42,597 nt of DNA from Eubacteriales bacterium (GTDB lineage Bacteria > Bacillota > Clostridia > Lachnospirales > Lachnospiraceae), in the NCBI GenBank assembly GCA_030533235.1, contig JAUNJN010000019.1:1-42597 (forward strand), read 5' to 3'. The notes below the pieces were generated by a model. It was not told where the DNA came from. It did not search any database and was given only the letters and a program-made list of their open reading frames with translations. The translations under genes were made by a program, and so were the position numbers. Positions 1,404 to 24,541 of the stretch are shown here, piece by piece. Position 1 is the first letter of the stretch. Each line of letters opens with the position of its first letter.

Positions 1404-1453
1404 AAACATCCCCCTTAACTATCTACTGTCTCAAATAATAAAATATGGCATAT

Positions 1454-1629: not shown

Positions 1630-2181
1630 TTATGAGTCACTGTATAATGTCAAAATCATCTGTGCCGTCTCCACGAACTTTCGACCGCAATCCATACTGT
1701 TTTTCTGAATATAGCGAAACGCTTCCGGTTCGCTCATACCATTTCGGTTAATCAATACAAGCTTCGCCTTGTCAATCAGTTTCTTTTCATCATCGCTCCG
1801 CTTCGGTGGCAATTCCCGTTTTTTCTTTGGTTTACGAACGAAGTTTGCAGTAACCATCTCGATGGTATCCAGAAGATCCGATTTGTGAAACGGCATCATG
1901 AGCTTCACCATATTATGTCGGACGCACTCTACGGACGCATCCTTTGTAAATATCACTGTACCAAAGCATTCCGGCAACATATCAGCCAGCTCAATATAAC
2001 TCATATCTCGCAGCCTTTTGGAACAAATCACCACACCGAAATCCCGGTTATTTGCCACCTGCAGAACCTGTGCTCCCGTGTCACAAATACTGATATCGTA
2101 AGGCAATCCGCTCCCTCTTATAATGCCTGCAATTGTATTAGTGTTCTCTGTCTTGGACAGTGCAATGATAATACTGCCCAT
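1630..2181 (-). CDS. ANTAR-domain RNA-binding antiterminator (NitR/NasT-like) with degenerate receiver
   Basis: This 183-residue protein has an N-terminal receiver-like fold (about 1-115), a basic linker (KPKKKRELPPKR), and a C-terminal ANTAR domain (about 130-180). The ANTAR domain has the typical K-A-K...NGMSEPEA...A/SM...A pattern. ANTAR proteins bind paired RNA hexaloop hairpins and stop formation of intrinsic terminators. The receiver lacks the N-terminal acidic pair. It carries Cys53-Ser54 where the phosphorylated Asp should be, and Met where the strand-5 Lys should be (MMPF), so control by phosphorylation looks impossible. It starts 15 bases after glnA with a strong site (GAAGGTGGAG) and is last in the pyrG-gltB-gltD-glnA operon. 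As I recall, a clostridial homologue called NitR sits next to glnA in Clostridium saccharobutylicum. Its probable targets are the four AAAGGC hexaloop terminators in this window, one of which heads its own operon. Confidence 0.88.
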   Translation of the reverse strand: MGSIIIALSKTENTNTIAGIIRGSGLPYDISICDTGAQVLQVANNRDFGVVICSKRLRDMSYIELADMLPECFGTVIFTKDASVECVRHNMVKLMMPFHKSDLLDTIEMVTANFVRKPKKKRELPPKRSDDEKKLIDKAKLVLINRNGMSEPEAFRYIQKNSMDCGRKFVETAQMILTLYSDS

Positions 2182-3496: not shown

Positions 3497-5005
3497 TTAT
3501 AGATTTGTATACCCCATCAATGATTCGTCGACAGCCTTTGCAGCCTCACGACCTTCTTTGATTGCCCAAACAACCAGAGACTGCCCACGGTGCATGTCAC
3601 CTGCCGTAAAAATCCTCTCGTTGGTAGTCTGATACTTACCGGTGCCGGTTAATATCGTATTTCTCTCATTACATTTTACCCCAAAACTACCCGGTACGTA
3701 AAGCTCACTTCCCAAAAATCCTGCTGCAATTAATACAATATCCGCTTTGATCTCCTGTTCCGTACCGGCAATCGGTACCATATTCATCCTTCCGGTTGCC
3801 TTATCTCTTTTTGATTCCAGCGAAACAGTCTTAACTGCCGTTAGATTTCCTTTTTTATCCTGAACAAACTCGGTCGCCGTCGTGCTGAATATACGAGGAT
3901 CTTTTCCGTATACGGCAATTGCCTCCTCCTGACCGTAATCCGTTTTCAAGACCTTCGGCCACTCCGGCCATGGATTACCGACAAGACGCTCCTTGCTCGG
4001 ACACGGCATCATTTCAAGCTGTATTACATTTTTTGCACCAAGTCGTATGCTTGTTCCTACACAGTCATTTCCGGTATCACCGCCTCCGATTACAACGATC
4101 GACTTTCCCTGAAGGGAACGGAACGAATAATCCTTCGCGCCAATCAGCTTTTCTGAGTCATAGTCATAGTCCATCAGCTTTTTGCTGACTTCAGACAGAA
4201 AATCAACCGCAAAATAAATACCCTTGGCATCTCTTCCCGGAATGCTGATATCTCTTGGCATCGACGCACCGCAGCATAGTATCACCCGATCGAATGCGTC
4301 CATAATTTCCTGTGCAGAAATATCCCTTCCGACATCCGTATTTGTCTGAAATGTAATTCCGGCATCCTCCATAAGCTTCACACGACGATCGATGACCCGC
4401 TTGTCAAGCTTCATATTTGGGATTCCGTAGCGAAGCAAGCCCCCGACACGGTCTTTCCTCTCAAATACGGTTACCTCATGTCCTCTTTTGTTTAAAAGCT
4501 GTGCAGCGGCAAGTCCCGCCGGACCGCTGCCAATAATCGCCACACGCTTCCCTGTCCGGTTTTCCGGTTTTGTCTCCTTGACCAAATCGTGCGCGTATGC
4601 ATATTCAATAATTGTCTTTTCATTTTCCTTTGTCGAGACCGGAGCTCCGAGAAGTCCGCACGTACATGCCGCCTCACAAAGTGCCGGGCAAACCCTTGAT
4701 GTAAATTCCGGAAAACTGTGCGTCTTAGCCAGTCGAATGTATGCCTGCTCCAAATTACCTCTGTACACGAGATCGTTTGTCTCCGGTACAAGATTATTTA
4801 ACGGGCATCCCGACGCCATACCGCCAATCATCATGCCGGCCTGACAAAACGGAACTCCACAGGACATACACCTTCCCGCCTGACACTGCTGCTCTTCAAA
4901 CGACAAGCTTTCGTGAAACTCCTCAAAGCTCTTAATTCTCTCCATAGGCGGAATCGTTACAGGTTCCTTCCTTTCATATTCCATAAATCCGGTTGCTTTA
5001 CCCAT
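3497..5005 (-). CDS. gltD: Glutamate synthase small subunit (NADPH, Fe-S, FAD)
   Basis: This 502-residue beta subunit of GOGAT passes electrons from NAD(P)H through FAD and two [4Fe-4S] clusters to GltB. Cluster cysteines are seen in CMSCGVPFC (about 46-54), CPLNN, and [12 protein letters not shown] (about 106-117). The FAD-binding [10 protein letters not shown] motif is near 160 and the NAD(P)H-binding GGGDTGNDC motif near 310. Length matches the family. It starts 15 bases after gltB with a GGAGG site and is followed by glnA, so GOGAT and a GS-like protein are made from one message. The call is secure. Confidence 0.96.
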
Positions 5006-5019
5006 AATAATCCTCCTTC

Positions 5020-8000
5020 CTACTTGAAGCTTTCATAAAATGCCTCAATCTGCGCCTTCTCATGGTCCATACCCTGTTCCTCATACATTGCTGTCATCTG
5101 AACCATCCTCTTATAATCCTCCGGAATAATCTTTTTGAATTTCGGAAGATATGTTTCGTAATCATCAAGAATCACTTTTGCCTTTTTGGAATCCGTATAT
5201 GCAAGATGTCGTTCCAGCAATTCTCTCAAAATTTCTCTATCAACCTTATTCTCAACCTTTTCCATAAGAACCATTTCTTTATTTAAATTTTTATAGAGAC
5301 AATTGTTTTCGTCCAAAACATATGCAATACCTCCGCTCATACCTGCCGCAAAGTTTTTGCCGGTTGGTCCCAAAATTACCGCAACTCCGCCTGTCATGTA
5401 TTCACAGCCATGCTCGCCGACACCTTCCACAACCGTTTTTGCACCGGAATTACGTACACAGAATCGTTCACCTGCCATACCCGCAATATACGCTTCTCCC
5501 GAGGTTGCCCCATAAAGTGCAACATTTCCGACGATGATATTGTCCTCAGCCGCATAGGAAGCTTCCTTCGGTGCCTTTAATACAAGCTTTCCTCCGGATA
5601 ATCCCTTTCCGAAATAATCGTTGCTGTCGCCTTCCAAATCCATCCGAAGCCCCGCCGGGATAAATGCCCCAAAGCTTTGTCCTCCGGATCCATGACAATG
5701 AATTGTTATTGTATCCTCTGAAAGTCCCTCATGGTGCTGTTTCGTGATTTCAGAACCAATCAACGTACCAAAGGTTCGATTAATATTTGTCACATGAACA
5801 TCAAGCTCTGTTTTATTACCCTTTTTGATTGCTTCCTTCAAGCCCTTTGTATTTGCAAGCAGCGTCTCGTCCAGCTCCTTTTCAAGCTTAAAGTCATAGA
5901 CATCCTCCGGGTGGAACGTACAATCCTCCTTCGGACTTTCAAGCAAAATGCGGTCAAGCGTAAGCTTACCCTGATTGCCGGAAAGGTTTTCTTTCTTGCG
6001 AAGCAAATCCGTACGGCCAACAAGCTCCTCAACCTTTCTTACCCCGAGCTTTGCCATATATTCCCGAAGTTCCTGTGCGATAAACAACATAAAGTTTTCC
6101 ACATACTCCGGCTTGCCGATAAAACGCTTCCGAAGCTCCGGATTTTGAGTTGCTACTCCCATCGGGCAGGTATCCAGATTACACACACGCATCATGACAC
6201 ATCCAAGTGTTACAAGCGGCGCTGTGGCAAATCCGTATTCCTCCGCACCTAAAATTGCCGCGATTGCAACATCACGACCACTCATCAGTTTTCCGTCCGT
6301 CTCAATGACAACCTGCTTACGAAGACCGTTCATAAGAAGTGTCTGATGTGTCTCCGCAAGTCCGAGCTCCCACGGAAGTCCCGCATTATGAATGGAACTA
6401 ATCGGTGCAGCACCCGTACCTCCGTCATAGCCGGAAATTAAGATAACACCCGCACCGGCCTTTGCAACACCGGCTGCAATTGTACCAACACCGGTTTCCG
6501 ATACAAGCTTTACGGAAATGCGTGCATCCTTGTTGGAATTTTTCAAATCGTAAATCAACTGTGCCAAATCCTCAATGGAATATATATCATGATGAGGAGG
6601 TGGCGATATCAGGCTGACACCCGGTGTAGAATGTCTTGTCTTCGCAATCCAAGGATATACCTTTTTGCCCGGCAAATGACCGCCTTCTCCCGGCTTTGCA
6701 CCCTGCGCCATCTTTATCTGAATTTCCTTTGCACTGCAAAGATAACGGCTTGTTACTCCGAATCTACCGCTTGCAACCTGCTTAATTGCTGAGCTTCTGT
6801 CATTTTTTGTACCGGCAGATTCCAGACGCTCATCACTTTCTCCGCCTTCTCCGCTATTTGACTTTCCGTGTAAATGATTCATTGCAATTGCGAGTGCCTC
6901 ATGTGCCTCCTCAGATATGGAACCATACGACATTGCCCCCGTTTTAAATCGCTTTACAATTTCCTCCACCGGTTCAACATCTTCGATCGGAATCGGTGTA
7001 TCACTATAATTAAAATCAATCAGGTTTCGCAGATAGCCGGTATCCTCATTGTCCGCCATTTCCGTATATTGCTTAAACTTCTCATAATCACCCTCGCGCG
7101 TTGACATCTGTAGCATATGGATGGTCTGCGGATTATAGCGATGCTGTTCCCCTTGCGCCCGCATCTTATGACGACCCACAGAATCAATTGTAAGGTCACT
7201 TGCAAGTCCGAGCGGATCAAACGCAAGTGAATGCTGATGGTCGGTTTTTTCCGCAATATCCTTTAAGGTAATTCCGCCGATTCTTGACACTGTTCCCGTG
7301 AAGTATTTATCGATAACCTCCTCCGAAACGCCAAGCGCCTCAAAGATTCGGCTGCCCATATAAGACTGGATGGTGGAAATACCCATCTTCGACGCAATTT
7401 TTACAATTCCCTGAATAATTGCGTGATCATAATCATCAACCGCTGCATAGTAATCCTTTGAAAGCAATTCCTCGTCAATCAACTGCTTAATCGTCGCATG
7501 CGCCAAATACGGATTAATTGCACAGGCACCATAGCCCATAAGTGTAGCAAAATGATGTACCTCCCTCGGCTCTGCCGATTCCAGCACAAGAGACATTGCC
7601 GTACATTTTTTTGTCTGAACAAGATGTCTGTGAACGGCCGCAACCGCCAGCAGTGACGGGATTGCCACATGATTTTCATCTACGCCTCGATCAGACAAGA
7701 TTAAAATATTAGCACCGTTTTTATATGCACGATCAACCGCAACAAACAATTGATCGATTGCACGGTCAAGCGGTGTACTTTTATAATACAGCATCGAAAC
7801 CTTCTCAACCTTAAAGCCATTACTGTTCATATGCGATATTTTCATAAGATCAAGGTCCGTCAAAATCGGATTCTTAATTTTTAACATATGACAATTTTCA
7901 GGTTTTTCCGACAGAAGGTTTCCGTTTTTGCCAAGATAAATTGTCGTCGCAGTCACAATTTTTTCTCTTGCCGCATCAATCGGCGGATTTGTAACCTGCG

Positions 8001-9573
8001 CAAACAATTGCTTAAAATAGTAAAACAACGGCTGATATTCCTTCGATAAAACGGCGATTGGCGTATCAACACCCATGGCACCAATATGTTCTGCACCATT
8101 TAATGCCATTGTACAAATCTCATCCTTATAATCCTCATATGTATATCCAAATGCCTTCTGTAATCTGATAAGCTCCTCATGGGAATAGGCAGGAACCTTT
8201 TCATTCGGAATTTTTATATCATGTAATGTCACAAGATTGCTGTCCAACCACTCTCCATACGGTTCCCTTGCTGCATAAACTGCTTTTAACTCTTCGTCGG
8301 AAACAATCTTGCCTTCCTTCATATCTACGAGAAGCATCTTACCCGGATGAAGTCGTTCCTTTTTCAATATATGTGCCTCATCAAGCGGCAGCACGCCAAC
8401 CTCTGACGATAAAATCAATCGTCCGTCATCCATTACATAATATCTGGATGGGCGCAGGCCGTTTCGATCAAGAATCGCCCCCATCGTATCACCATCTGAG
8501 AACAAGATGGACGCAGGACCGTCCCACGGCTCCATCATGGTCGCATAGTATTGATAGAAATCTCTTTCTGTCTGTGAAATTGTATCGTTGTGTTCCCATG
8601 GCTCCGGTATCAATATCATTGCCGCCAGTGCCGGGTCCATACCGCCCATAACCATAAATTCAAGCGCATTGTCAAGCATTGCAGAATCGGAACCCTCTGC
8701 CGAAATAATCGGCAGTACCTTTGCAAGATCCTCATCTGAGAAACAGTCCGTGTAGATTGTCTCTTCTCTGGCAAGCATTTTGTCGACATTTCCCTTAATT
8801 GTATTGATTTCTCCGTTGTGAACAACAAAGCGATTCGGATGTGCTCTGTGCCAGCTTGGATTTGTATTCGTTGAAAAGCGGGAATGCACAAGCGCAACTG
8901 CCGATTCATATGAAGCATCCCGAAGATCATCAAAAAATAATCTCAGCTGACCGACAAGGAACATTCCCTTATATACGATTGTTCTGCAGGATAAGGACGG
9001 CACATACGTTTCCTCATTACTTTGTTCAAACACGCGTCGTATTACATAAAGCTTTCTGTCAAATGCCAGATCGTCTGCAATGCAAGCCGGACGCTTGATA
9101 AATGCCTGGTAAATCACCGGACAGGATTCCAGCGCATTAGCTCCTAATACCTCTTTCTTCACCGGGACCTCTCTCCATCCAAGGAAAGAAAGTCCTTCTT
9201 TTTTTACAATCACCTCGAACATCTTCTTTGCCTGCGAACGCTTTAGCTCCTGCTGCGGGAAGAAAAACATACCGACACCATAGCTTCTCTCGCCGCCGAT
9301 TTCGATTCCGAGTGCTTTGCATTCCCTTTGAAAGAAACGATGCGGAATCTGTGTGAGAATCCCGACACCGTCACCGGTCTTTCCTTCTGCATCTTTTCCT
9401 GCACGATGTTCAAGATTTTCTACGATTTTTAATGCGTCATCTACAATCTGATGGCTTTTTTTACCATGTATATTTACGATCGCTCCGATGCCACAGTTAT
9501 CATGTTCAAAGGTCGGATTATACAAGCCTTTTCCATCTTTAATCTGTTGTAATTGTTCGTTATTTGTACTCAT
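5020..9573 (-). CDS. gltB: Glutamate synthase large subunit
   Basis: This 1517-residue alpha subunit of GOGAT converts glutamine and 2-oxoglutarate to two glutamates. The amidotransferase nucleophile is Cys27, exposed after removal of a 26-residue propeptide (EHDNCGIGA). The central and FMN domains follow, including GEGGE and the [3Fe-4S] cysteines in [13 protein letters not shown]. The C-terminal GXGXG beta-helix domain ends the protein. It lies 16 bases after pyrG with a GGAGG site and no promoter or terminator between them, so it should be transcribed from the pyrG leader and be under its attenuator. Full length, no damage seen. Confidence 0.97.
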
Positions 9574-9589: not shown

Positions 9590-11191
9590 TCAAGAAATCT
9601 GCTTTAGAGCAGCTTCAATAAATCCGCGAAACAGTGGATGTGGGACATCCGGTCTTGATTTTAATTCCGGATGTGCCTGCGTTGCCACGAAAAACGGATG
9701 CTGTAGCAGTTCAATCATCTCAACAATGCGTCCGTCCGGAGAGATTCCGGATAATGTCATTCCGTGCTCCGTATAGGTTTGTCTGTAATCATTATTTACC
9801 TCATAACGATGTCTGTGCCGTTCCTCAATACAGTCCTTATCGTACAACTGCCTTGCCTTTGTACCATCCTGTAATACACACGGATATGCCCCCAATCGCA
9901 AGGTTCCTCCGAGATTTACGACTCCGTTTTGCTCCGGAAGCAATGCGATAACCGGATTTGTCGTATCCGGATCAAGCTCGATGCTTGCCGCATCCGGGAT
10001 GCCGCAAACGTGTCTTGCAAATTCCACAATTGCAAGCTGCATCCCAAGACAAAGACCAAGGAACGGCAGGCGATTCTCCCTTGCATACCGGATTGCAACA
10101 ACCATTCCATCCGTACCACGTTTTCCGAATCCGCCCGGAACAATCACCCCGTTTACATCCTTCAGACAGTCCGCCACGTTTTCCTCCGTCACAAGCTCCG
10201 AATCAACCCATTTAATAAACACCTCTGTCTTATTGGCAATGCCTCCATGCTTAAGTGCTTCCACAACACTGATATATGCATCATGAAGTGCAACGTATTT
10301 TCCGACAAGTGCAATCGTTACCGTATGCTTCGGATTTTGATAATCCTCCACCATCTGCTTCCACTTCGTAAGATCCGGCTTCGGACACGGAATATTCAGA
10401 CATTCACATACTGCACCGGCAAGATTTTCCTCCTCGAGCATAAGCGGAACCTCATAAAGGGACTTTGCATCCAGATTTTGTAACACGTGCTCCTTTTTCA
10501 CGTTACAGAACAATGCGATTTTCTCACGCATGCCATCATCCACCGGATAATCCGATCTGCAAACCAAAATATCCGGCCAGATTCCCATACTTTGCAAGCT
10601 TTTGACACTCATCTGGGTCGGCTTCGTCTTCATCTCACCGGATGATTTCAAGTAAGGAATCAATGTCACCTGAATCATGATTGCGTTTTCTCTGCCGACC
10701 TCTGCCTGAAACTGTCTGAATGCTTCCAAAAACGGCTGACTCTCGATATCTCCGACTGTACCACCAATTTCAATAATCGAAATCGTTATATCATCCTTCG
10801 AATCATCCTTGTATATCCGATCCTTTATTTCATTTGTAATATGCGGTATAACCTGTACCGTTCCGCCCTCGTAATCACCGTGACGCTCTTTATTTAACAC
10901 CGACCAATAAATCTTACCTGTCGTCACATTTGCATTTTTTCCAAGATTTTCATTGATAAATCTTTCATAATGGCCAAGGTCCAAATCGGTTTCCGTGCCA
11001 TCCTCTGTTACAAACACTTCACCATGCTGAATCGGATTCATTGTACCCGGATCCATATTGATATACGGATCAAATTTCTGCATCGTCACATGATAACCTC
11101 GTGCCTTTAACAATCTTCCAAGCGAGGCTGCCGTAATCCCTTTCCCAAGTCCTGATACAACGCCGCCTGTTACAAACACATACTTAACCAT
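9590..11191 (-). CDS. pyrG: CTP synthase
   Basis: This 533-residue enzyme aminates UTP to CTP with glutamine and ATP. The N-terminal synthase domain begins with [11 protein letters not shown]. The C-terminal class I amidotransferase domain has the nucleophile in LGLCLGMQ and the His/Glu pair in AHPE near the end. It is the first gene of the pyrG-gltB-gltD-glnA-ANTAR operon, an unusual grouping of a pyrimidine gene with GOGAT. The shared theme is glutamine use. It is preceded by a promoter and an AAAGGC hexaloop terminator. The initially transcribed GGGC run used for reiterative attenuation of Bacillus pyrG is not seen here. Confidence 0.97.
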
Positions 11192-11225: not shown

Positions 11226-11276
11226 AAAGGCGTCAAAGAGACCTAAACAAATTAGGTTTCTCTGACGCCTTTGTCA
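11226..11276 (-). promoter_or_regulatory. ANTAR-type hexaloop overlapping a terminator, pyrG leader
   Basis: On the minus strand, TGAC-AAAGGC-GTCA (11263-11276) forms a 4-bp stem with a six-base loop that has A at position 1 and G at position 4. The loop and 3' arm are also the 5' arm of a long terminator hairpin (AAAGGCGTCA...TGACGCCTTT, with a GAGA...TCTC and ACCTAA/TTAGGT upper stem), followed by a modest T-rich tail. The two folds exclude each other. The device sits between a promoter and pyrG and controls the operon that encodes the ANTAR protein itself. Confidence 0.8.
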
Positions 11277-11298
11277 TCACAATATTATCATGTGACAA

Positions 11299-11327
11299 AG
11301 TTTATCATTTTTTTAAGTAAATGTAAA
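11299..11327 (-). promoter_or_regulatory. Promoter of the pyrG-gltBD-glnA-ANTAR operon
   Basis: The -35 box TTTACA (11322-11327), a 17-base spacer and the -10 box TAAACT (11299-11304) on the minus strand. The predicted start is about 15-20 bases before the hexaloop hairpin. A second weaker -10-like element (TGATAATAT) lies just downstream. Confidence 0.6.
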
Positions 11328-11442
11328 GAAAAAGTTGTTATTTTGAAGCAAAAAGTTATTTTTACTTGTTTTTCATAACATTTTCATTTTCTTTTATGCA
11401 TTTTGCATGTACTCGCAAATGCACAAACAACTGAAAACGCTC

Positions 11443-13182
11443 TTATTCTACATCCTGAAGTGCTTCAAAATCCTCTTCACCTGTACGAATCTTAACTACC
11501 TTTTCTACCGGATATACGAAAATCTTTCCATCACCGATATGACCGGTATAAAGTGCCTTCTTTGCAGCTTCGATTACATTGTCAACCGGAATCTTGCTGA
11601 CAACAACTTCTACCTTAACCTTCGGAAGTAAGGTAACATCCATCTCTACGCCTCGATACATCTCACCGGCACCCTTCTGAACACCACAACCCATTACCTG
11701 TGTGACTGTCATTCCGGTTACACCGAGATTATTCATTGCCTTCTTTAAGATATCGTAACGAGAAAGCTTTGCGATAATAACAACCTTGTACATTCCGGTA
11801 TCCGGCATCGGCATCCTTGTAACATTGACTGCTGCCTCCTTTACAACCTCGGATGCCTTTTCGTAATTTTCAGTTCCAAGACTGCTGTTCTCATTGACAT
11901 CCATTGTCATAGTATTGGAAATATCCATAATTGAGAAGCCTGCGTATGCAGATGGAAGACCATGCTCTGTAATGTCAAGACCTGTGATCTCTTCCTCCTC
12001 ACTTGTACGAAGACCAATTGTTACTTTAATCAAAAGGAATGTTATTGTAATTGTCACTGCGGTCCAGGCTGCAACCGTTACGAATCCAAGAAGCTGTTCA
12101 TTTAACTGCTTCATACCACCACCGTAGAACAAACCGTTAATCTCATTTCCCGGAACGGATGCTGTTGCAAACAAACCAACTGCAATTGTACCCCAAATAC
12201 CGTTCAGGCAGTGTACTGCAACCGCACCAACCGGATCATCGATACGAAGTACATAATCAAGTAACCAAACACCAAATACAACAAGTACACCGGCAACGGC
12301 ACCGATAATTACGGAACCGAGTGCATCTACCACATCACAACCGGCTGTGATTGCAACCAGACCTGCAAGGGATGCATTCAAACACATAGACACATCCGGC
12401 TTACCATACTTCACCCAGGTAAATATCATACATACTACAGTTGCAACTGCAGGAGCAATTGTAGTTGTGAGGAAGATTGTTCCAAGCTGTTCTACACTTG
12501 TTGCCGCTGCACCGTTAAATCCATACCAGCCGAACCAAAGGATAAATACACCGAGTGCACCGAGTGGAATATTATGTCCCGGAAAAGCATTAACCTTTGT
12601 AACCTTTCCGTTATCATCCTTTACAAACTTACCAATACGTGGTCCGAGAATCTTTGCACCGATTAATGCAGAGATACCACCAACCATATGAATTGCACAG
12701 GAACCTGCGAAATCATGGAAGCCTCTTTCAGCTAACCAGCCACCGCCCCAGATCCAGTGTGCCTCAATCGGATAAATCAATGCGGAAATCACAGCGGAAT
12801 AAATACAGTACGATAAGAATTTTGTTCTCTCTGCCATTGCACCGGATACGATAGTTGCTGTTGTTGCACAGAATACAAGGTTAAACACAAAATTTGACCA
12901 GTCAAAATTTTCATATGCCGTAAAAATGTCAAATCCCGGCTTACCGATGAAACCAACCAAATCTTCACCAAACAATAACCCAAAACCAATTGCGATGAAA
13001 ACAACTGTACCGATACAGAAGTCCATCAGGTTTTTCATAATGATGTTACCGGAGTTTTTTGCCCTCGTAAAGCCTGCCTCTACCATCGCAAATCCGGCCT
13101 GCATCCAGAATACAAGTGCTGCACCGATTAAGAACCACACAGCGAACACTTGATTATTAATAAATTCAAATATTTCTTCCAT
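11443..13182 (-). CDS. amt: Ammonium transporter fused to a C-terminal PII (GlnK) domain
   Basis: The protein has 579 residues. Residues 1 to about 400 are an 11-helix Amt channel with the twin pore histidines (AIHMVGG and AVHCLNG). After a linker, residues about 465-579 form a complete PII domain: GCGVQKGAGEMYRG leads into the T-loop, followed by LPKVKVEVVV and a B-loop TGHIGDGKI. The residue matching Tyr51, the uridylylation site of classic PII, is Met514, so control must come from ATP/ADP/2-oxoglutarate binding or another modification. Free GlnK normally plugs Amt trimers; here the plug is covalently attached. The gene follows glnN with an AAAGGC hexaloop hairpin in the gap and no clear promoter of its own, so it is probably partly read through from glnN. 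Confidence 0.95.
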   Translation of the reverse strand: MEEIFEFINNQVFAVWFLIGAALVFWMQAGFAMVEAGFTRAKNSGNIIMKNLMDFCIGTVVFIAIGFGLLFGEDLVGFIGKPGFDIFTAYENFDWSNFVFNLVFCATTATIVSGAMAERTKFLSYCIYSAVISALIYPIEAHWIWGGGWLAERGFHDFAGSCAIHMVGGISALIGAKILGPRIGKFVKDDNGKVTKVNAFPGHNIPLGALGVFILWFGWYGFNGAAATSVEQLGTIFLTTTIAPAVATVVCMIFTWVKYGKPDVSMCLNASLAGLVAITAGCDVVDALGSVIIGAVAGVLVVFGVWLLDYVLRIDDPVGAVAVHCLNGIWGTIAVGLFATASVPGNEINGLFYGGGMKQLNEQLLGFVTVAAWTAVTITITFLLIKVTIGLRTSEEEEITGLDITEHGLPSAYAGFSIMDISNTMTMDVNENSSLGTENYEKASEVVKEAAVNVTRMPMPDTGMYKVVIIAKLSRYDILKKAMNNLGVTGMTVTQVMGCGVQKGAGEMYRGVEMDVTLLPKVKVEVVVSKIPVDNVIEAAKKALYTGHIGDGKIFVYPVEKVVKIRTGEEDFEALQDVE

Positions 13183-13205
13183 ACGCCTCTCTCCTTTCTT
13201 ATAAC

Positions 13206-13246
13206 AAAAGGCACGTTCCCTATTCCACGGAACGCGCCTTTGCGTT
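13206..13246 (-). promoter_or_regulatory. ANTAR-type hexaloop overlapping a terminator between glnN and amt
   Basis: On the minus strand, AACGC-AAAGGC-GCGTT (13231-13246) is a 5-bp stem with the six-base loop AAAGGC. It overlaps the terminator arm AAAGGCGCGTTCC, which pairs with GGGAACGTGCCTTT. The T tail (TTTTGTTAT) is weak, so this may act as a leaky terminator that lets some glnN transcripts continue into amt. No convincing promoter precedes it. Confidence 0.78.
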
Positions 13247-13266
13247 TGTTTTCCTGTTTAATTTAT

Positions 13267-15375
13267 CTACACATAGAACAACATATCTGCATAGCTTGGA
13301 TACGGCATCATCTCTGCCGGAATTACTTCCTCTGCTGCATCTGCAATTGTACGAATCTCTGCCATATCTGTAAGGATTGTCTCCTGATAGAACTTTGCAA
13401 GTGCAAGACTGTCTGTCATTGCCTCTGCCTTGATACGATCCTCGATAAGCTTTTCATTCAATTCATCCAACTGCTCATACCAAGCAGAAAGCTTTTCGAT
13501 AAGCTTAAGCTCTGACTTGCAGGAAATATTTTCTGCAATCTGCTTTTTCTTTCCTACAACCGTCATAACTGAATCCAAATAATTCATAAGAGCCGGCATA
13601 AACTGGTGATTCAGCATATCAGACAGAGTCTTTGCCTCGATATGAATATTCTTTGAATAGTTCTCAAGTAAAATTTCATATCTGGACTCAATCTCACTCT
13701 TTGTAAAGATATGATGTGAAACAAAGAGATCTACATTTTTCTTCTCTATGAAAACCGGTAATACATCCGGTGTTGAACGGTAGTTGTAAAGTCCTCTCTT
13801 TTCCGCCTCAGCAACCCATTCATCCGTATAGCCGTTTCCATTGAAGATTACACGCTTGTGCTCTGCAATTGTTTTCTTCAACAGCTCATGTACCGCCTTG
13901 TCCATCTCTTCCGGAGCAACATCCTTTAATATCTCATAGAAGCCGCTAAGCTCTTCAGCCACTGCCGTATTTAATACAACATTCGGACCGGATACGGAAA
14001 TTGAAGAACCAAGCGAACGGAACTCAAATTTGTTGCCCGTGAAGGCAAATGGTGAAGTTCTGTTTCGATCGGTTGTATCCTTCATAAAGTGAGGCAATAC
14101 CGATGCCCCTGTATCCATGGCAACCATCTGCTTATTTCCAAAGAATGTATCATTTTCGATCGAGTCAAGTACAGACGTAAGTTCATCTCCGAGGAAGATG
14201 GAAATGATTGCCGGAGGTGCTTCATTTGCTCCTAATCTGTGGTCATTTCCCGCACTTGCTACAGAAAGTCTCATCAAATCTGCATATTCATCCACAGCCT
14301 TTATTACTGCTGTAAGGAATACGAGGAACTGAATATTTTCAGCCGGTGTCTTTCCCGGATCCAAAAGATTGATTCCCGTATTCGTTGTCATCGACCAGTT
14401 ATTATGCTTTCCGGAACCGTTGATTCCGTCGAACGGTTTTTCATGAAGCAGACATACAAAGCCATGCTTCTCCGCAACCTTCTTCATGACCTCCATCGTA
14501 AGCTGGTTATGATCTACAGCTACATTTGTCGTATCAAATACCGGTGCAAGCTCATGCTGACAAGGGGCAACCTCGTTATGCTTTGTCTTTGCCGGAATTC
14601 CGAGTTTCCAAAGTTCCTCATCCAAATCATGCATATAAGCAGCAACTCTTGGCTTTAATGTACCAAAGTAATGATCCTCCATCTCCTGACCCTTTGGAGG
14701 CATCGCACCGAGAAGTGTTCTTCCCGTAAAAATAAGATCCGGTCTCTTCTTGAAATCCTCTTTATCGACTAAGAAGTATTCCTGCTCAGGTCCAACGGTT
14801 GTTGAAACGCTCGTCACATCTTTATTACCGAGCAAATTGAGCACCTTGGTTGCTTCCTTGCTAAGTGCTTCCATAGAACGAAGAAGCGGGGTTTTCTTGT
14901 CAAGTGCCTCACCGCTGTAAGAACAAAATGCGGTTGGGATGTACAAGGTTCCGTCCTTTACAAATGCCGGTGATGTCGGATCCCATGCTGTATAGCCTCT
15001 TGCCTCAAATGTAGCTCTAAGACCACCGGATGGGAAGCTGGACGCATCCGGCTCGCCCTTTACAAGCTCCTTACCGGAAAACTCCATAATGATTTCGCCG
15101 TTTCCAACCGGATTGATAAAGCTGTCATGCTTTTCAGCCGTAAAGCCTGTCATCGGCTGGAACCAATGTGTAAAATGGGTTGCTCCCTTTTCCATCGCCC
15201 ATTCCTTCATCGCAACTGCAACTGCATTTGCAACATCAAGCTCCAAGTGTGTATTCTGATCAATTGTCTTTTTCAATGCTTTATATATGTCCTTCGGAAG
15301 CTTATCTCTCATAATCTTATCATTGAAAACCATGCTTCCATACATTTCAGGCAATTTCTGTGGTGTAACATCCAT
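13267..15375 (-). CDS. glnN: Type III glutamine synthetase
   Basis: This 702-residue GS III (the long form found in Bacteroidetes, cyanobacteria and clostridia) makes glutamine from glutamate, ammonia and ATP. Family segments include [10 protein letters not shown] (about 215), [12 protein letters not shown] with the metal-binding glutamates, [12 protein letters not shown] with the His, and [17 protein letters not shown] with conserved arginines. The C-terminal helical extension typical of type III is present. Since the type I-like GlnA here looks degraded at the active site, this is likely the main assimilatory enzyme. Two in-frame ATGs exist; AAAGGAG lies nine bases before the second, which I chose, and three before the first. 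It has its own promoter and attenuator just after carB. Confidence 0.95.
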
Positions 15376-15406
15376 AATCATAATCTCCTTTCATGCTTCT
15401 TTTATT

Positions 15407-15435
15407 GCCTCGAAAGCTGCGCAGACTTTTGAGGC
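15407..15435 (-). promoter_or_regulatory. Second stem-loop in the glnN leader
   Basis: On the minus strand, GCCTC pairs with GAGGC, inside it AAAG with CTTT, and inside that CTG with CAG. This gives a strong hairpin between the attenuator and the ribosome site of glnN. It has no T tail and no AnnGnn hexaloop. Role unknown; it may protect the message or space the leader. Confidence 0.5.
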
Positions 15436-15445
15436 CTAAATAAAG

Positions 15446-15484
15446 AAAAAGGCACCTTGGAATTATCCAAAGCGCCTTTGCTTT
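15446..15484 (-). promoter_or_regulatory. ANTAR-type hexaloop overlapping a terminator, glnN leader
   Basis: On the minus strand, AAAGC-AAAGGC-GCTTT (15469-15484) gives a 5-bp stem with loop AAAGGC. The same bases from AAAGGC onward form the terminator AAAGGCGCTTTGGA/TCCAAGGTGCCTTT (fully paired with two G-U pairs) and a TTTTTCTTTATTT tail. It begins only about four bases after the predicted transcription start. It also serves to stop read-through from carB. Confidence 0.85.
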
Positions 15485-15494
15485 TATGTTTTGT

Positions 15495-15523
15495 ACTATA
15501 GCACCATGTTTTTTCTTTGTCAA
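15495..15523 (-). promoter_or_regulatory. glnN promoter
   Basis: The -35 box TTGACA (15518-15523), a 17-base spacer and the -10 box TATAGT (15495-15500) on the minus strand, starting eight bases after the carB stop codon. It is a near-perfect housekeeping promoter, so control must act downstream, at the terminator. Confidence 0.85.
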
Positions 15524-15531
15524 CAGAAAAT

Positions 15532-18500
15532 TTAAAAAATTTGTGAAACTCGTATTGTCTGTTCCTCAAGCACATCAAGTAGTACCTTTACCGTGTCGAG
15601 GGAGGTAAACATTGTAACGTTGTTTTCGATGGCACAACGTCTGATTGCAACACCATCCACATAGTGAACGCCCGATAAAATCGCTCTCGTATTTATGATA
15701 TAGCTCACATAACCCGCACGAATCGTCTGCAGGATTTCCTCACTTCCCTCACTAAGCTTCCGGCGAATACGCGTCTTGATACCATGCTCCTTCAAAAACT
15801 CGGCACTGCCAATTGTGCCCTCAATATTAAAGCCCATATCATAAAAACGCTTGATGAGAGGAAGTGCCTCCTCTTTGTCCTCATCCGCCAGTGTGACAAG
15901 CACCGTGCCGTAATTTTGCAGCTTAATTCCGGATGCGACAAGTGCCTTATACATTGCACGATGCAGCTTCTCATCGTATCCGATGGCTTCTCCGGTCGAC
16001 TTCATCTCCGGTGACAAATAGGCATCCATACCCTTTAGCTTTGAGAACGAAAACGCAGGTGCCTTGACATACCATTTATCCCTTTCATCCGGATACAGCT
16101 GTAAGATGCCCTGCTCCTTCAGAGTCACACCTAAAATTGCAAGTGTTGCAATATCCGCAAGCGAATAACCGGTTGCCTTTGACAGAAACGGAACCGTACG
16201 CGAGGACCTTGGATTGACCTCAATAATATAGACATCATCGTTTTCATCTACAATAAACTGAATGTTAAATAACCCCACGATACCGATACCGAGTCCAAGC
16301 TTTTTCGTATATCTTAAAATTGTACCCTTGACCTTGTCCGATATACTAAACGGCGGATACACACTGATAGAGTCTCCGGAATGCACGCCGGTACGCTCTA
16401 CAAGCTCCATAATACCCGGAACAAATACATTATATCCGTCACAGACCGCATCGACCTCAACCTCTTTTCCCTTGATATAGCGGTCTACAAGTACAGGCTT
16501 ATCCACATCCACCTCAACCGCAGTCTTTAGGTAATGGCGCAGATCTTCTTCCTTGGAAACAATCTGCATGGCACGACCGCCCAGCACAAAGCTCGGTCTG
16601 ACAAGTACCGGATAGCCGATCTGCGCAGCCGCCTTCACGCCATCCTCTATATTCGTCACCGCAAGTCCTTTTGGTTGCGGAATATCAAGCTCCAACAAAA
16701 GCTTTTCAAATTCATCTCGGTTTTCTGCCTTCTCAATCGCAGTACAATCTGTTCCGATAATAGTTACCCCATATTCGCGAAGCGGTTCCGCAAGATTGAT
16801 TGCCGTCTGACCACCGAGAATTGCAATGACCCCCTCCGGTTTCTCCATCTCGACAATATTCATAACATCCTCTACACAAAGCGGCTCAAAATACAATTTA
16901 TCCGATGTCGTATAATCCGTAGAAACCGTCTCCGGGTTATTATTAATTATGATTGCCTCATAGCCCGCTTCCTTGATAGTCTTTACCGCATGCACGGTCG
17001 AGTAGTCAAACTCCACACCCTGTCCGATACGGATCGGTCCGGAACCAAGCACAATAATTTTCTTTTTGTCCGATATGACCGACTCATTTTCTTCCTCATA
17101 GGTCGAATAGAAATACGGGATGTAGCTTTCAAACTCTGATGCACACGTATCAATCATTTTATAGACAGGGAAGATGTTGTGTGCTTTTCGTATATCATAG
17201 ATTTCGTGTGCGGTTTTACCACCCCAGAGATCCCCGATTTCCCGGTCGGAAAAGCCCATCCGCTTTGCCCGATATAGCACATCATAATCATTGACAGCAT
17301 TTTCAAGCTCCCGCTCCATCAAGATAATGTTTTCCAGCTTCTTCAAAAAGAACATATCAATACCGGTTATTTTCGAGATTGCACCAAGCGAAACATCTCT
17401 TCTTAAAAGCACGGCAATGGCATAGATTCTGTCATCCGTTCCCTTTGTAATATACGCAAGCAACTCATCCGTAGACACGTTATCAAACTTTGGATTGTAT
17501 AAATGGTATACACCGATTTCCAAAGAGCGAACCGCCTTAAGCAAGCTTTCCTCGAACGTTCTTCCGACACTCATCGCCTCGCCGGTTGCCTTCATCTGTG
17601 TACCGAGTGTATTGTTTGCATCGTTAAATTTATCAAACGGGAAACGCGGCATCTTTGTTACAACATAATCCAGTGCCGGTTCAAAGCTTGCCAGCGTATT
17701 TGCCAGTTCAATTTCATCCAATCGAAGTCCTACGGCAATCTTCGCGGACACGCGCGCAATCGGATATCCACTCGCCTTGGACGCAAGTGCCGACGATCTT
17801 GACACCCTCGGATTTACTTCTATCAAATAATAATTAAAGGACTTTGGATCTAACGCAAACTGCACATTGCAACCACCCTTGATATCAAGTGCACGGATAA
17901 TTTTTAATGCACTGTCACGCAGCATATGGTACTCCTTGTTCGTAAGCGTCTGGGACGGGCACACTACGATTGAATCGCCGGTATGGATACCAACCGGATC
18001 CAGGTTTTCCATGTTACAAATCGTAATCGCCGTGTCATTCGCATCGCGCATAACCTCGTACTCAATTTCTTTATATCCCTTTACACTCTTTTCAATTAAT
18101 ACCTGGTGTACGGGAGACAGGACAAATGCATTTTTTAAAATATCGTGAAGCTCCGTCTCGTTATCGGCAAAGCCGCCACCTGTACCACCAAGCGTAAACG
18201 CAGGTCGCACAACAACCGGATATCCGATTTGTTTCGCGGCATTTACACCTTCCTCCATTGTTTCCGCAATCAAAGAAGGAAGCACCGGTTCATTCAACCG
18301 AATACAGAGCTCCTTAAACTGTTCACGGTCCTCCGCCTGCTCAATACTTTGAAAATCCGTACCCAGAAGCTCTACCCCACATTCTCGCAAAACACCTTTT
18401 TTCTCGAGCTGCATGGCAAGATTCAGTCCCGTCTGACCGCCGATTCCCGGAAGGATTGCATCCGGTCGTTCCATACGGATAATTTTTGCAATGAATTCCA

Positions 18501-18711
18501 GTGTAAGCGGTTCCATGTAAACCTTGTCCGCAATACTCTGGTCTGTCATAATCGTTGCGGGATTTGAGTTACAAAGAATAACCTCGTAGCCTTCCTCTCG
18601 AAGAGCAAGGCATGCCTGCGTTCCTGCATAGTCAAACTCTGCCGCCTGACCGATTACAATCGGTCCGGAGCCAATCACTAAAATTTTATGGATATCTATA
18701 CGTTTCGGCAT
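15532..18711 (-). CDS. carB: Carbamoyl-phosphate synthase large chain
   Basis: This 1059-residue chain uses ammonia from CarA, bicarbonate and two ATP to make carbamoyl phosphate for arginine and pyrimidines. It has two homologous ATP-grasp halves, starting with [17 protein letters not shown] and [17 protein letters not shown]. Each has glycine-rich nucleotide loops (GGTGGGF and FVLGGRAM) and metal-binding EVNPR. The C-terminal allosteric (MGS-like) domain follows. The start is one base after the carA stop, with a GGAGG site inside the carA end. It is third in the purF-carA-carB operon. Confidence 0.97.
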
Positions 18712-18712
18712 C

Positions 18713-19819
18713 CTACTTTCCCTCCTTCCATGCTTTCATATTCGCAATAAATTCATCGAATAAATATGCGCTGTCCTGCGGTCCCGGCGCACTCTCCGGG
18801 TGATACTGAACAGAGCATACATAATCCTCCCTACACTGTACACCCTCGATCGTATTATCCAGCAAATTCACATGCGTGACCGTAAGTCTTGTATTTTTTA
18901 CGCTGTCTGCATCCACTGCGTACGAATGATTTTGCGATGTAATTTCGATTTTATCTGTTTGCAGATTTTTCACCGGATGATTGCCTCCCCGATGTCCGAA
19001 TTTAAGCTTATAGGTTTTGGCACCGTACGCAAGCGATATCATCTGATGTCCGAGACAAATTCCAAAAATCGGACATTTTCCAATTAAATTTTTTATTGTT
19101 TGAATGGTAGGTAATACATCCGTCGGGTCTCCAGGTCCGTTCGATACAAACACGCCGTCCGGTTTCATCGCAAAAATCTCTTCCGCGGATGTATTCCATG
19201 GTACAACCGTAACCGCAATTTTTTTCTCACACATCATACGTACGATATTTGCCTTCATCCCGCAGTCAATCGCAACTACACGATAATCACACGCTGTTTC
19301 ATTGCCCTCACGGTAAATCTCTTTTGTACTGACTCGTGAAACGGCATCCCTTGGCGCTTCATACGTCTTCAACCGCTCTACGACCTCTTCGGTTCCGATA
19401 TCCGAACGTGTAATGCACGCAAGCATGCTTCCGTGTTCACGAATATGTCTGGCAATTCTTCTCGTATCGACATCGGATATGCCTACGATATTGTATTTAC
19501 ACATAATTTCCTGCAGTGTATTTAAGCTTCTGAAATTAGACGGAAAATCATTATAATCCCGCACAACAAAACCGGACAAGGACGGTATCTTTGTCTCGTA
19601 ATCCTGTTCATTTATACCGTAATTTCCGATTAACGGATACGTCATCACAACAGCCTGATCCGTATAGGAAGGATCTGACATAATTTCCTGATATCCGACC
19701 ATGGATGTGTTAAATACCAGTTCCACAATCGCATCTGAATCTGCTCCAAAACCTCTTCCGACATATTCCATGCCATCCTCCAAAATCAGTCTGCATACAG
19801 CTTGTCCCATCACGCACAT
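18713..19819 (-). CDS. carA: Carbamoyl-phosphate synthase small chain
   Basis: This glutaminase subunit of about 368 residues feeds ammonia to CarB. The C-terminal class I amidotransferase domain has the Cys nucleophile in FGICLGHQ and the His/Glu pair in [10 protein letters not shown]. The N-terminal CPSase small-chain domain is complete. The start is uncertain: GTG at 19822, ATG at 19819 and ATG at 19810 (giving MGQAV) are in frame, and none has a strong ribosome site. It lies about 35 bases after purF with no terminator, so it is probably co-transcribed with purF. Confidence 0.95.
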
Positions 19820-19856
19820 CACTCACTTTCTCATTTTTTCTCACGATATTTCATCG

Positions 19857-21227
19857 TTACACCGGGTATCTATTATCAAAGCACGCTTTACAAATCGGTA
19901 AATTTCCTGTCATACAAGGGAAATCCGAGATATCCATATAACCGAGGGAATCCGCTCCGATAGATGTACATATTTCTTCCACCGTCATATTGTTTGCAAT
20001 CAACTGCGAATTATCCGGCACATCCGTTCCGTAATAACAAGGATACAAAAACGGAGGAGAGCTGATTCTGACATGAACCTCCTTTGCCCCGCATCCGCGC
20101 AGCATATGAATCAAATTGGCAATCGTCGTACCTCTCACAATTGAATCATCAATCAGCACTATTCGTTTCCCTCTGACAACCGGTTCAAGCACACTAAGCT
20201 TTGCCTGCACCGCATTTGCACGTTCCTCCTGTGTCGGCTTAATAAATGTTCTTCCGACATAGCTGTTTTTATGAAATGTCAGCGAAAACGGGATGCCCGA
20301 CTCCTTTGCATATCCAACAGCAGCAACCAGCCCGGAGTCCGGTACGCCGGTGACAACATCCGCCTCGACCGGATACCTTCTCGCAAGCGCCATTCCTCCC
20401 GCAATTCGGGCATCATAAACATTGATGCCGTCGAGCTTGGAATCGAGTCTTGCAAAATAAATATATTCAAATATACAATGTGCACGTTCTTTAATCTGCA
20501 ACGAATGATCAACACACAGACCTTCCTTTGTAATGGTCAGTATTTCACCCGGCTCAATATCACGAATAAATTCACCCCCGACAGCCAATATCGCACAGCT
20601 TTCGGATGCAACGATATAACTGTCCCCGCATTTACCAAGACACAATGGTTTGATTCCGTAAGGATCCCTTACTGCAACCAGCTTTCTCGGACTTAGTACG
20701 AGCAATGCATATCCTCCCTTTATACGTTTTGCAGTCTTATATACCGCCTGTTCAATCGAATCGGAGCCAATCCGCTCCTTTGCAATTCGATAAGCAATTG
20801 TTTCCGAATCGGAGGTTCCGTTAAAGATTGCTCCCTCCTTTGACAGCTCTAACCGAAGTTCATCCGCATTCGTAATATTCCCGTTATGTGCAAGCGCCAG
20901 GGTTCCCTTCAAATAGTTAAGGACAATCGGCTGTGCATTTGCGACAACACTCCCACCGGCCGTTGAATACCGCACATGCCCGATTCCAATATTTCCGCGT
21001 AGCTTATCAAGAGCTTCCTTGTGAAACACCTCACTTACAAGCCCCATATCCTTATGTGTGCATATATTTCCGATCGGACCGTTCGTATCACATACTACAA
21101 TTCCCGCTGACTCCTGTCCGCGATGCTGTAATGCTAAAAGGCCCTGATAAATCGTATGTGCGACTGACTCATTTCCAAGGTTCCAAATTCCGAATACGCC
21201 ACACTCTTCTTTTACATGATCATCCAT
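19857..21227 (-). CDS. purF: Amidophosphoribosyltransferase
   Basis: This 456-residue enzyme uses glutamine and PRPP in the first committed step of purine synthesis. An eight-residue propeptide precedes the nucleophile Cys9 (KEECGVFGI). The PRPP loop is in VLIDDSIVRGTT. A C-terminal ICKAC pair and other cysteines suit the Bacillus-type Fe-S form, which is oxygen-sensitive. It is first in a purF-carA-carB operon. That arrangement is odd, because purF normally sits in a pur operon; here it is joined to another glutamine amidotransferase. It is preceded by a consensus promoter and an AAAGGC hexaloop terminator. Confidence 0.96.
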   Translation of the reverse strand: MDDHVKEECGVFGIWNLGNESVAHTIYQGLLALQHRGQESAGIVVCDTNGPIGNICTHKDMGLVSEVFHKEALDKLRGNIGIGHVRYSTAGGSVVANAQPIVLNYLKGTLALAHNGNITNADELRLELSKEGAIFNGTSDSETIAYRIAKERIGSDSIEQAVYKTAKRIKGGYALLVLSPRKLVAVRDPYGIKPLCLGKCGDSYIVASESCAILAVGGEFIRDIEPGEILTITKEGLCVDHSLQIKERAHCIFEYIYFARLDSKLDGINVYDARIAGGMALARRYPVEADVVTGVPDSGLVAAVGYAKESGIPFSLTFHKNSYVGRTFIKPTQEERANAVQAKLSVLEPVVRGKRIVLIDDSIVRGTTIANLIHMLRGCGAKEVHVRISSPPFLYPCYYGTDVPDNSQLIANNMTVEEICTSIGADSLGYMDISDFPCMTGNLPICKACFDNRYPV

Positions 21228-21274
21228 CCTATCCGCTCTCCTTTTTCCTCAAGCACAATTGTCTATTCTCTCAC

Positions 21275-21322
21275 AAAAAAAGAGGCACCTCGAACCATAA
21301 AGATTCGAAGCGCCTTTGCTTC
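21275..21322 (-). promoter_or_regulatory. ANTAR-type hexaloop overlapping a terminator, purF leader
   Basis: On the minus strand, GAAGC-AAAGGC-GCTTC (21307-21322) gives a 5-bp stem with loop AAAGGC. It overlaps the arm AAAGGCGCTTCGAA of a terminator whose other arm is TTCGAGGTGCCTC, followed by seven T. It starts about four bases after the predicted transcription start and is very similar in sequence to the glnN device. It also ends read-through from potD. Confidence 0.86.
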
Positions 21323-21331
21323 CTGTCGATT

Positions 21332-21360
21332 ATTATATTCTCGTATTTTCGAAAAGTCAA
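21332..21360 (-). promoter_or_regulatory. purF-carA-carB promoter
   Basis: The -35 box TTGACT (21355-21360), a 17-base spacer and a perfect -10 box TATAAT (21332-21337) on the minus strand, beginning only six bases after the potD stop codon. Confidence 0.87.
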
Positions 21361-22899: not shown

Positions 22900-22901
22900 C
22901 C

Positions 22902-24508: not shown

Positions 24509-24541
24509 TTTCACTACCTCCTATCGTAAATGTAATAAGAA

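Follow-up and report, generated by a model that had tools for sequence, protein, structure and literature searches.

Single-hexaloop terminator leaders point to a glutamine and ammonium regulon under a NitR-like ANTAR protein in a Lachnospiraceae bacterium

In contig JAUNJN010000019.1 of a Eubacteriales bacterium of the family Lachnospiraceae (assembly GCA_030533235.1), four minus-strand gene groups, purF-carA-carB, glnN, amt/P-II and pyrG-gltB-gltD-glnA-ANTAR, have one leader each, and each leader holds a small hairpin with the six-base loop AAAGGC that overlaps an intrinsic terminator. We refer to the whole stretch of DNA analysed, 42,597 nucleotides (nt), as the window. The locus raises the question of what reads these hairpins, and whether one hairpin can suffice where the antitermination sites described for ANTAR proteins have two. 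Our answer, to which we give a probability of roughly 0.8 on the basis of sequence comparison, is that a single NitR-like ANTAR protein, encoded at the end of the fourth group, runs a glutamine and ammonium regulon by antitermination at one-hairpin sites. A first-pass annotation of this DNA had proposed one ANTAR regulon over the four units, and covariation, co-occurrence and the presence of largely the same gene set in other genera support that proposal. Two points go beyond it, namely that described ANTAR sites are paired whereas these are single, and that the GlnA adjacent to the ANTAR protein is degenerate. Published work is cited below from those parts of each paper that were available.

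We scanned both strands of the window for hexaloops, either AAAGGC or any loop of the form A..G.., on a stem of at least 4 base pairs (bp) and with an overlapping terminator of score at least 20. With either loop definition the scan recovered exactly the four leader composites, whereas 60 dinucleotide shuffles of the window contained no AAAGGC composite and, for any A..G.. loop, averaged 0.17 (maximum 3). The four composites are not due to chance. They are as follows, all read on the minus strand, with expectation values (E) from R1, a covariance model introduced further below.

21307..21322, minus strand: single hexaloop hairpin GAAGC AAAGGC GCTTC of purF-carA-carB, loop 21312-21317 (scan; R1 E 7.8e-4 in the own genome)
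21284..21314, minus strand: intrinsic terminator stem of the purF leader, overlapping the hairpin, with a U-rich run at about 21274-21283 (sequence and folding)
15469..15484, minus strand: single hexaloop hairpin AAAGC AAAGGC GCTTT of glnN, loop 15474-15479 (scan; R1 E 3.7e-9, the site being one of the 40 R1 training sequences)
15451..15476, minus strand: intrinsic terminator stem of the glnN leader, overlapping the hairpin (sequence and folding)
13231..13246, minus strand: single hexaloop hairpin AACGC AAAGGC GCGTT of amt, loop 13236-13241 (scan; R1 E 0.011)
13210..13238, minus strand: intrinsic terminator stem of the amt leader, overlapping the hairpin (sequence and folding)
11263..11276, minus strand: single hexaloop hairpin TGAC AAAGGC GTCA of the pyrG unit, loop 11267-11272 (scan; R1 E 1.7e-4)
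11229..11269, minus strand: intrinsic terminator stem of the pyrG leader, overlapping the hairpin (sequence and folding)

The first-pass annotation had described an AAAGGC hexaloop on a 4-5 bp stem before purF, glnN, amt and pyrG, with stem bases that differ yet pair (GAAGC/GCTTC, AAAGC/GCTTT, AACGC/GCGTT, TGAC/GTCA) and with a 3' part that doubles as the 5' arm of the terminator. All of this was found again in the four leaders. The GGC of the loop together with the 3' stem arm forms the terminator 5' arm in 4/4 cases, and the two structures are thus mutually exclusive. Folded alone, the terminators of the four leaders reach -21.0 to -29.0 kcal/mol and the small hairpins -2.9 to -4.9 kcal/mol. 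Since each hairpin is 17-26 kcal/mol weaker than its own terminator, a trans-acting factor would be needed in order to favor it.

In order to follow the element outside the window, we used a family sample of 150 Lachnospiraceae genomes, one per genus, and a promoter-anchored pattern in which the loop and its closing C-G pair were fixed and the remaining stem was free. The pattern matched 66/150 genomes. After removal of duplicates there were 101 rows, 76 with a good terminator and 25 without. A stem of at least 4 bp was present in 57 of the 76 sites with a terminator, whereas 5000 shuffles of the arms gave 24.2 such sites on average and never more than 36. Pairs 2, 3 and 4 were formed in 72, 71 and 61 of these sites (shuffled means 55.8, 57.1 and 41.5) and alternate mostly between A-U and G-C. 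Pairing at position 5 was weak (37/76, with a shuffled mean of 26.0 and a maximum of 37), and pair 6 did not pair above chance in the 76 sites. Pair 1, the C-G, was imposed by the search pattern. For the 65 distinct rows and five pairs, the covariation score was 0.531 compared to 0.244 after shuffling, with 0/500 shuffles as high, and it did not exceed 0.199 when the partner was slid; the number of pairs changed on both sides, 4, was the same as in shuffles. The covariation that the first-pass annotation had asked for is therefore present in the 76 related sites and strongest at pairs 2-4. The loop in relatives is usually AAnGGY, with A1, G4 and the closing C-G pair.

The second check named by that annotation, co-occurrence with an ANTAR gene, gave the same picture inside and outside the family. 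Pattern sites with a stem of at least 4 bp were found in 43/131 ANTAR-positive and 1/19 ANTAR-negative family genomes (p=0.014), and those with a stem of at least 3 bp in 50/131 and 1/19 (p=0.0037). R1, built from 40 of the 51 eligible sites of the same family, matched 96/131 ANTAR-positive versus 2/19 ANTAR-negative family genomes (p=2e-7), a count that is partly circular and loses weight for that reason; the 11 eligible sites left out of the model include one from the ANTAR-negative genome G137. Outside the family, among non-training genomes, R1 matched 40/115 ANTAR-positive and 4/121 ANTAR-negative genomes (p=1.6e-10), and in the whole class sample 46/124 and 4/121, respectively; these counts, like all those above, ignore phylogeny, which has to be held against them. 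The two family genomes with a site and no ANTAR gene are G137 and G109. The first of these exceptions is weakened by the fact that the contig stops 9 nt past the glnA match, at the place expected for the ANTAR gene.

Both the pattern and R1 presuppose the loop. We therefore also examined leaders chosen by their genes, with any hexaloop accepted on a stem of at least 4 bp and an overlapping terminator score of at least 18 for the regions upstream of glnA-ANTAR in 60 genomes (set 1, glnA present in 58), or at least 20 for 74 named leaders. A candidate hexaloop was present in 27/58 leaders of set 1. A1 together with G4 occurred in 19/20 candidates closed by C-G, in the loops AAAGGC, AAGGGC, AAGGGT, AATGGC, AACGGC and AAGGGG, compared to 1/13 of the other candidates. 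Candidates were found in 20/74 named leaders; 18 were closed by C-G, 16 of them with both A1 and G4 and 18/18 with G4. The hexaloop with A1, G4 and a closing C-G is the set of determinants described for ANTAR targets (PMC3369931, as far as the available text goes). The first-pass assignment of the leaders to this type thus agrees with both loop-blind sets, and AAAGGC fits it in 4/4 window leaders. Loop position 3 is variable (A, G, T, C) in the glnA leaders of both sets, and two named leaders, L327 and L338, have G and not A at loop position 1.

The window leaders share with EutV/EutW of Enterococcus faecalis the A1/G4 hexaloop, the closing C-G, the 3' arm overlapping a terminator, the nitrogen theme and an ANTAR protein in the genome (PMC3369931, PMC8934654, available parts). 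The difference lies in the number of hairpins, EutV sites having two hexaloops with a short linker, both of them required, and the sites here one, usually at the transcript start. Promoter elements in the window were read as follows.

21355..21360, minus strand: purF promoter -35 TTGACT (sequence read; best promoter match, spacing 17 nt)
21332..21337, minus strand: purF promoter -10 TATAAT, ending 14 nt before the loop (sequence read and promoter scoring)
15518..15523, minus strand: glnN promoter -35 TTGACA (sequence read and promoter scoring)
15495..15500, minus strand: glnN promoter -10 TATAGT, ending 15 nt before the loop (sequence read, pattern and promoter scoring)
11282..11287, minus strand: candidate extended -10 (TG-A-TAATAT) for pyrG, 9 nt ahead of the loop (read by eye; the script's choice was a box whose end lies 26 nt from the loop)

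Most sites stand directly behind a near-consensus promoter, and in these the hairpin is the first structure of the message. The -10 box ends 9-19 nt before loop position 1 in 24/29 sites (the window and 25 loop-blind glnA-leader sites), mostly with a near-consensus promoter, and 9-20 nt before the loop in 54/66 promoter-anchored sites. The promoter score was at least 12 in 49 of the latter compared to 2/66 after shuffling; these 66 sites were chosen with a nearby TATA, so that the -35 match is the independent part of this result. With the transcript start taken about 7 nt after the -10 box, about 3-14 nt of RNA would precede the loop, which is the 5' arm only and leaves no room for an upstream hairpin (P1). 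The 70 nt upstream of each of the four window sites contain no A..G.. hexaloop with a stem of at least 3 bp. In the same interval of 66 relatives such a hexaloop was seen in 12 compared to a shuffled mean of 12.3, and with 4 bp in 7 compared to 5.2. Among 21 loci, 14 of the 16 listed have no second hexaloop upstream; the other two, L254 and L245, lie outside the family, and each shows a doubtful A..G.. hexaloop candidate, at 8 and 12 nt upstream, respectively. The tandem P1 and P2 arrangement of ANTAR targets was thus not found. Because EutV needs both hairpins and the sites here have one, we class the window sites as a predicted variant of ANTAR attenuation and not as plain members. At G208:C5:49380-49500 two R1 matches on the same strand are separated by 41 nt and may represent serial attenuators.

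The draft genome of this bacterium, 2.28 Mb in size and 87% complete, yielded a single ANTAR protein, the product of 1630-2181. Its family profile aligns with EutV (6wsh) and Rv1626 (1s8n) over most of the length, and with NasR (4akk) and AmiR (1qo0) C-terminally. The receiver half is recognized by Pfam at E 0.053 only; the predicted structure (mean predicted local distance difference test score, pLDDT, 86.9) is confident, with strands and helices alternating in a receiver-like way through the first half and three helices closing the chain. In an 18-row alignment, the column of EutV Asp54 holds Ser in the window protein and Gly or Ala in the 17 other rows, and the receiver-like domain has no phospho-acceptor Asp. 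This sets the protein apart from EutV, which is phosphorylated on Asp54 (available parts of the EutV papers).

A close functional likeness is NitR of Clostridium saccharobutylicum, an ANTAR protein in ammonium assimilation (PMC6316151, PMC4676874, available parts). Antitermination by NitR is reported to induce the glutamine synthetase (GS) and glutamate synthase (GOGAT) genes upon nitrogen limitation (review PMC6316151, in its available part). Compared to NitR, the predicted regulon here also includes purF-carAB, pyrG, amt-PII and type III glutamine synthetase (GSIII), and in relatives asnB, argD and a glnQ-like gene; in addition, the adjacent GlnA is often catalytically degenerate and the RNA element is defined here. 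The genes of the window that belong to the four groups are listed below.

19857..21227, minus strand: purF (TIGR01134, 491.9 bits)
18713..19822, minus strand: carA (TIGR01368)
15532..18711, minus strand: carB (TIGR01369)
13267..15381, minus strand: glnN, type III glutamine synthetase (GSIII_N PF12437, 273 bits)
11443..13182, minus strand: ammonium transporter (amt) fused to a P-II domain in one reading frame (PF00909 and PF00543)
9590..11191, minus strand: pyrG (TIGR00337)
5020..9573, minus strand: gltB (PF00310/PF01645)
3497..5005, minus strand: gltD (TIGR01317)
2197..3465, minus strand: glnA-like gene; its product has a degenerate active site and is the proposed partner and sensor of the ANTAR protein (Gln-synt_C, 344 bits; under the TIGR00653 cut-off)
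1630..2181, minus strand: NitR-like ANTAR protein with a degenerate receiver and an ANTAR domain (PF03861, 58.9 bits; cut-off 27.3)

The first-pass annotation had placed the ANTAR gene itself under the pyrG leader. The gaps within pyrG-gltB-gltD-glnA-ANTAR are 14-31 nt, and together with the single ANTAR gene of the genome they are consistent with autoregulation. Genes for a spermidine/putrescine-type ATP-binding cassette (ABC) transporter lie directly upstream of purF (21367-26002, minus strand), and a FliB flagellin lysine methylase gene lies downstream of the ANTAR gene (210-1409, minus strand).

In the own draft genome R1 gave the four window sites along with two shadows on the reverse strand and a pair of weak matches. 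One of the weak matches, L240 (G000:C2:39031-39065, plus strand, E 0.73), has TTGACA, TATAAT, the 4 bp hairpin CAAC AAAGGC GTTG and a terminator, followed by a gene for a PucR-family regulator. The own regulon thus probably has five units, with the leader of the PucR-family regulator as the fifth. The other weak match, L241 (G000, R1 E 1.69), is unlike a leader site and was dropped. For relatives, the DNA downstream of 67 sites (69 sites had a stem of at least 3 bp; the window's own were set apart) was compared with the window proteins. It matched amt in 19 cases, glnN in 17, gltB in 6 (one weak), glnA in 4, pyrG in 3, purF in 3, carA in 1 and an ABC ATPase in 2, one of these GlnQ-like. No window protein matched in 12 cases, which include asnB (3), argD (2) and agcS (1). 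The theme of this predicted regulon is the making, importing and using of glutamine. ANTAR leaders before genes for ammonium transporters, P-II, and glutamine and glutamate synthesis already appear in Ramesh 2012 (PMC3369931, available part). The concept of an ANTAR regulon for nitrogen genes is accordingly known. What is new here is that the hairpin is single and close to the transcript start, and that the GlnA neighbor is degenerate. Among the matches listed in the open-licence literature, there was nothing beyond the cited papers on single-hexaloop ANTAR sites, or on ANTAR with purF or asparagine synthetase.

We propose that, without active ANTAR protein, the terminator would form and RNA polymerase would stop within about 50-60 nt. 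Active ANTAR protein would trap the small hairpin as it leaves the polymerase and so allow read-through into purF-carAB, glnN, amt-PII and pyrG-gltBD-glnA-ANTAR, the last of which would amount to positive autoregulation.

Several observations weigh against antitermination by an ANTAR protein at single sites, and they are best considered along with the alternatives that they favor. The antitermination sites described in the available parts of PMC3369931 and PMC8934654 are dual, with both hairpins needed for EutV, and the script finds no close promoter for pyrG (26 nt) and amt (38 nt) in the window. The leaders might then be ordinary dual-hexaloop sites whose P1 was missed, either because the transcript starts further upstream or because P1 is degenerate. 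The doubtful upstream hexaloops of L254 and L245 would fit this, as would a best promoter match elsewhere in 5/29 sites (including window pyrG and amt) and in 12/66. We nevertheless consider it unlikely, since no P1 was seen within 70 nt of the window sites, the 66 relatives show no excess, and in most sites the -10 is so close to the loop that only the few nucleotides given above would precede it. About equally unlikely is that the hairpins are bound by a non-ANTAR protein or by a factor whose only link to ANTAR is co-occurrence. The residues by which EutV contacts RNA (numbers assigned by offset from the printed chain) are only partly kept: EutV Met172 corresponds to M163 here and is invariant across the 18 rows, and in the window protein Tyr164 is replaced by Phe (His in 15/18 rows), Arg168 by Gln, Asn173 by Asp and Arg175 by Gly. 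With 1/5 contact residues invariant, recognition may differ from that of EutV. R1 also matches four ANTAR-negative class genomes (G161, G166, G230 and G322). Against our main reading as such, no C-G-closed A1/G4 candidate was found in 39/58 and 58/74 glnA leaders beside ANTAR; in some of the leaders lacking a candidate glnA lies inside an operon, as the window copy does. On the other side stand the A1, G4 and closing C-G of the loop-blind sets, the strong co-occurrence with ANTAR outside the training family, several sites that precede the glnA-ANTAR pair itself, and the contig end that may account for the family exception G137.

Two further explanations dispense with a binding protein. The composites could simply be intrinsic terminators that serve the upstream genes, with the small hairpin arising incidentally where A-runs pair with U-runs; many terminators are laid out as AAAGGC...GCCTTT, and the pattern used without a promoter also matches unrelated stretches, the 25 weak rows being counted here too. 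The probability of this is very small in our view. In purF, glnN and most relatives the hairpin is separated from the upstream gene by a promoter, its two arms covary, the downstream genes form one metabolic set, and the rows without a good terminator have little stem (18/25 with only 1-2 pairs, the first of them fixed by the pattern). Least probable of all is an RNA-only attenuator or glutamine riboswitch. A regulon defined by glutamine would suit it, but a single 4-5 bp hairpin before the terminator is no structured aptamer, and Rfam gave no match at gathering threshold in the window and, in five loci, two far-below-threshold, chance-level matches away from the leaders. Antitermination by the NitR-like protein at single hairpins therefore remains our preferred reading.

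What would signal to a protein of this kind? Phosphorylation would not convey the signal, since there is no acceptor Asp in the receiver-like domain, and the neighboring GlnA may be the source of the signal. A glnA gene lies directly upstream of 127/133 family ANTAR places (the sub-cut-off row G038 left out) and of 78/80 named loci. Compared to Bacillus subtilis GS (4lnf), window GlnA carries D50Y, R339E and R344K and so does not have the full set of catalytic residues of an active type I GS. Residue numbers, which we take to be those of Salmonella GS, were placed by alignment to 4lnf. At least one of 13 catalytic residues is lost in 46/76 ANTAR-linked GlnAs, non-conservatively in 38, and at least two are lost in 32; the 76 comprise the window copy and 75 full-length copies from the 80 named loci nearest the window protein (three of the 78 named GlnAs, with short frames, were left out) and hence lean to its kin. 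N264 as a 14th catalytic residue (57/76 with at least one loss) was dropped, as it varies in unlinked GlnA too. In the class sample (30 loci) none of the 12 full-length unlinked copies has a loss, one of them, L345, lying two genes upstream of an ANTAR gene, whereas 4/17 linked copies do (window, L361, L366 and L370); this sample excludes lower-scoring ANTAR-linked copies (e.g. G150, G157 and G163) and the partial L363. By tree parsimony, the copies with at least two losses need five changes, at least two of them forced by supported branches. The ratio of nonsynonymous to synonymous substitution rates (dN/dS) was 0.03-0.084 in the ten computable pairs, out of twelve, of close copies, six with at least two losses, one with one and three intact. 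GSIII is present in 148/150 family genomes. At G191:C1:2277616-2280980, in Clostridia, a glnA (580 bits), a divergent glnA (402 bits) and an ANTAR gene stand in tandem, and duplication may have freed the second copy.

The residue losses together with the low dN/dS suggest that GlnA is kept for something besides catalysis. We propose that, at least in the degenerate lineages, linked GlnA serves a non-catalytic role, most simply that of a ligand-sensing partner of ANTAR. A more specific version, to which we give somewhat less than even odds, is that GlnA is a non-catalytic or dual-role GS homologue and a glutamine sensor, which would bind the pseudo-receiver ANTAR protein and release it according to glutamine state, thereby opening or closing the one-hairpin leaders. 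Other results count against a sensor role. All 13 catalytic residues are kept in 30/76 linked copies, outside the family only 2/15 linked copies have a loss (L366 and L370), the 12 unlinked controls are high-scoring members of other families, and dS is saturated in the two window pairs (2.4 and 2.5). Scores below the TIGR00653 cut-off do not separate the groups either (42/127 linked and 3/19 unlinked GlnAs, p=0.18, not significant); two of these three unlinked copies, in G137 and G126, are located at contig ends.

There are precedents for both halves of the proposal. In Bacillus subtilis, GS acts on TnrA and GlnR as an active enzyme on a DNA-binding regulator, whereas the regulator here would bind RNA as an antiterminator, and the GS may have no enzymatic activity. 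The likeness to GS-TnrA lies in a GS that works as nitrogen sensor by binding a regulator (PMC6316151, available part). In AmiC-AmiR and NasS-NasT an ANTAR protein is held inactive by a ligand-binding partner (PMC3795266, available part), and GlnA could hold the ANTAR protein in a similar ligand-dependent manner, with the difference that the partner would be a GS homologue and that the interaction is our proposal. On a pseudo-GS paired with ANTAR, the matches listed in the open-licence literature held nothing beyond the cited papers. If the proposal is true, an enzyme-derived sensor would be paired with an RNA antiterminator, and catalysis would be left to GSIII.

Walshe 2022 (PMC8934654), in the part available, found that a dimer contacts one hexaloop at a time, asked why antitermination needs two, took one hexaloop as the new minimal definition of an ANTAR target and called for bioinformatics on single-hexaloop motifs. 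The sites described here would amount to an extensive natural collection of attenuators with one hairpin, spread over dozens of Lachnospiraceae genera and further Clostridia, that makes the question of why two hexaloops are needed directly testable. They also sketch a probable regulon around glutamine supply and use in these bacteria, and point to a degenerate glutamine synthetase that appears to be under selection beside an RNA-binding regulator.

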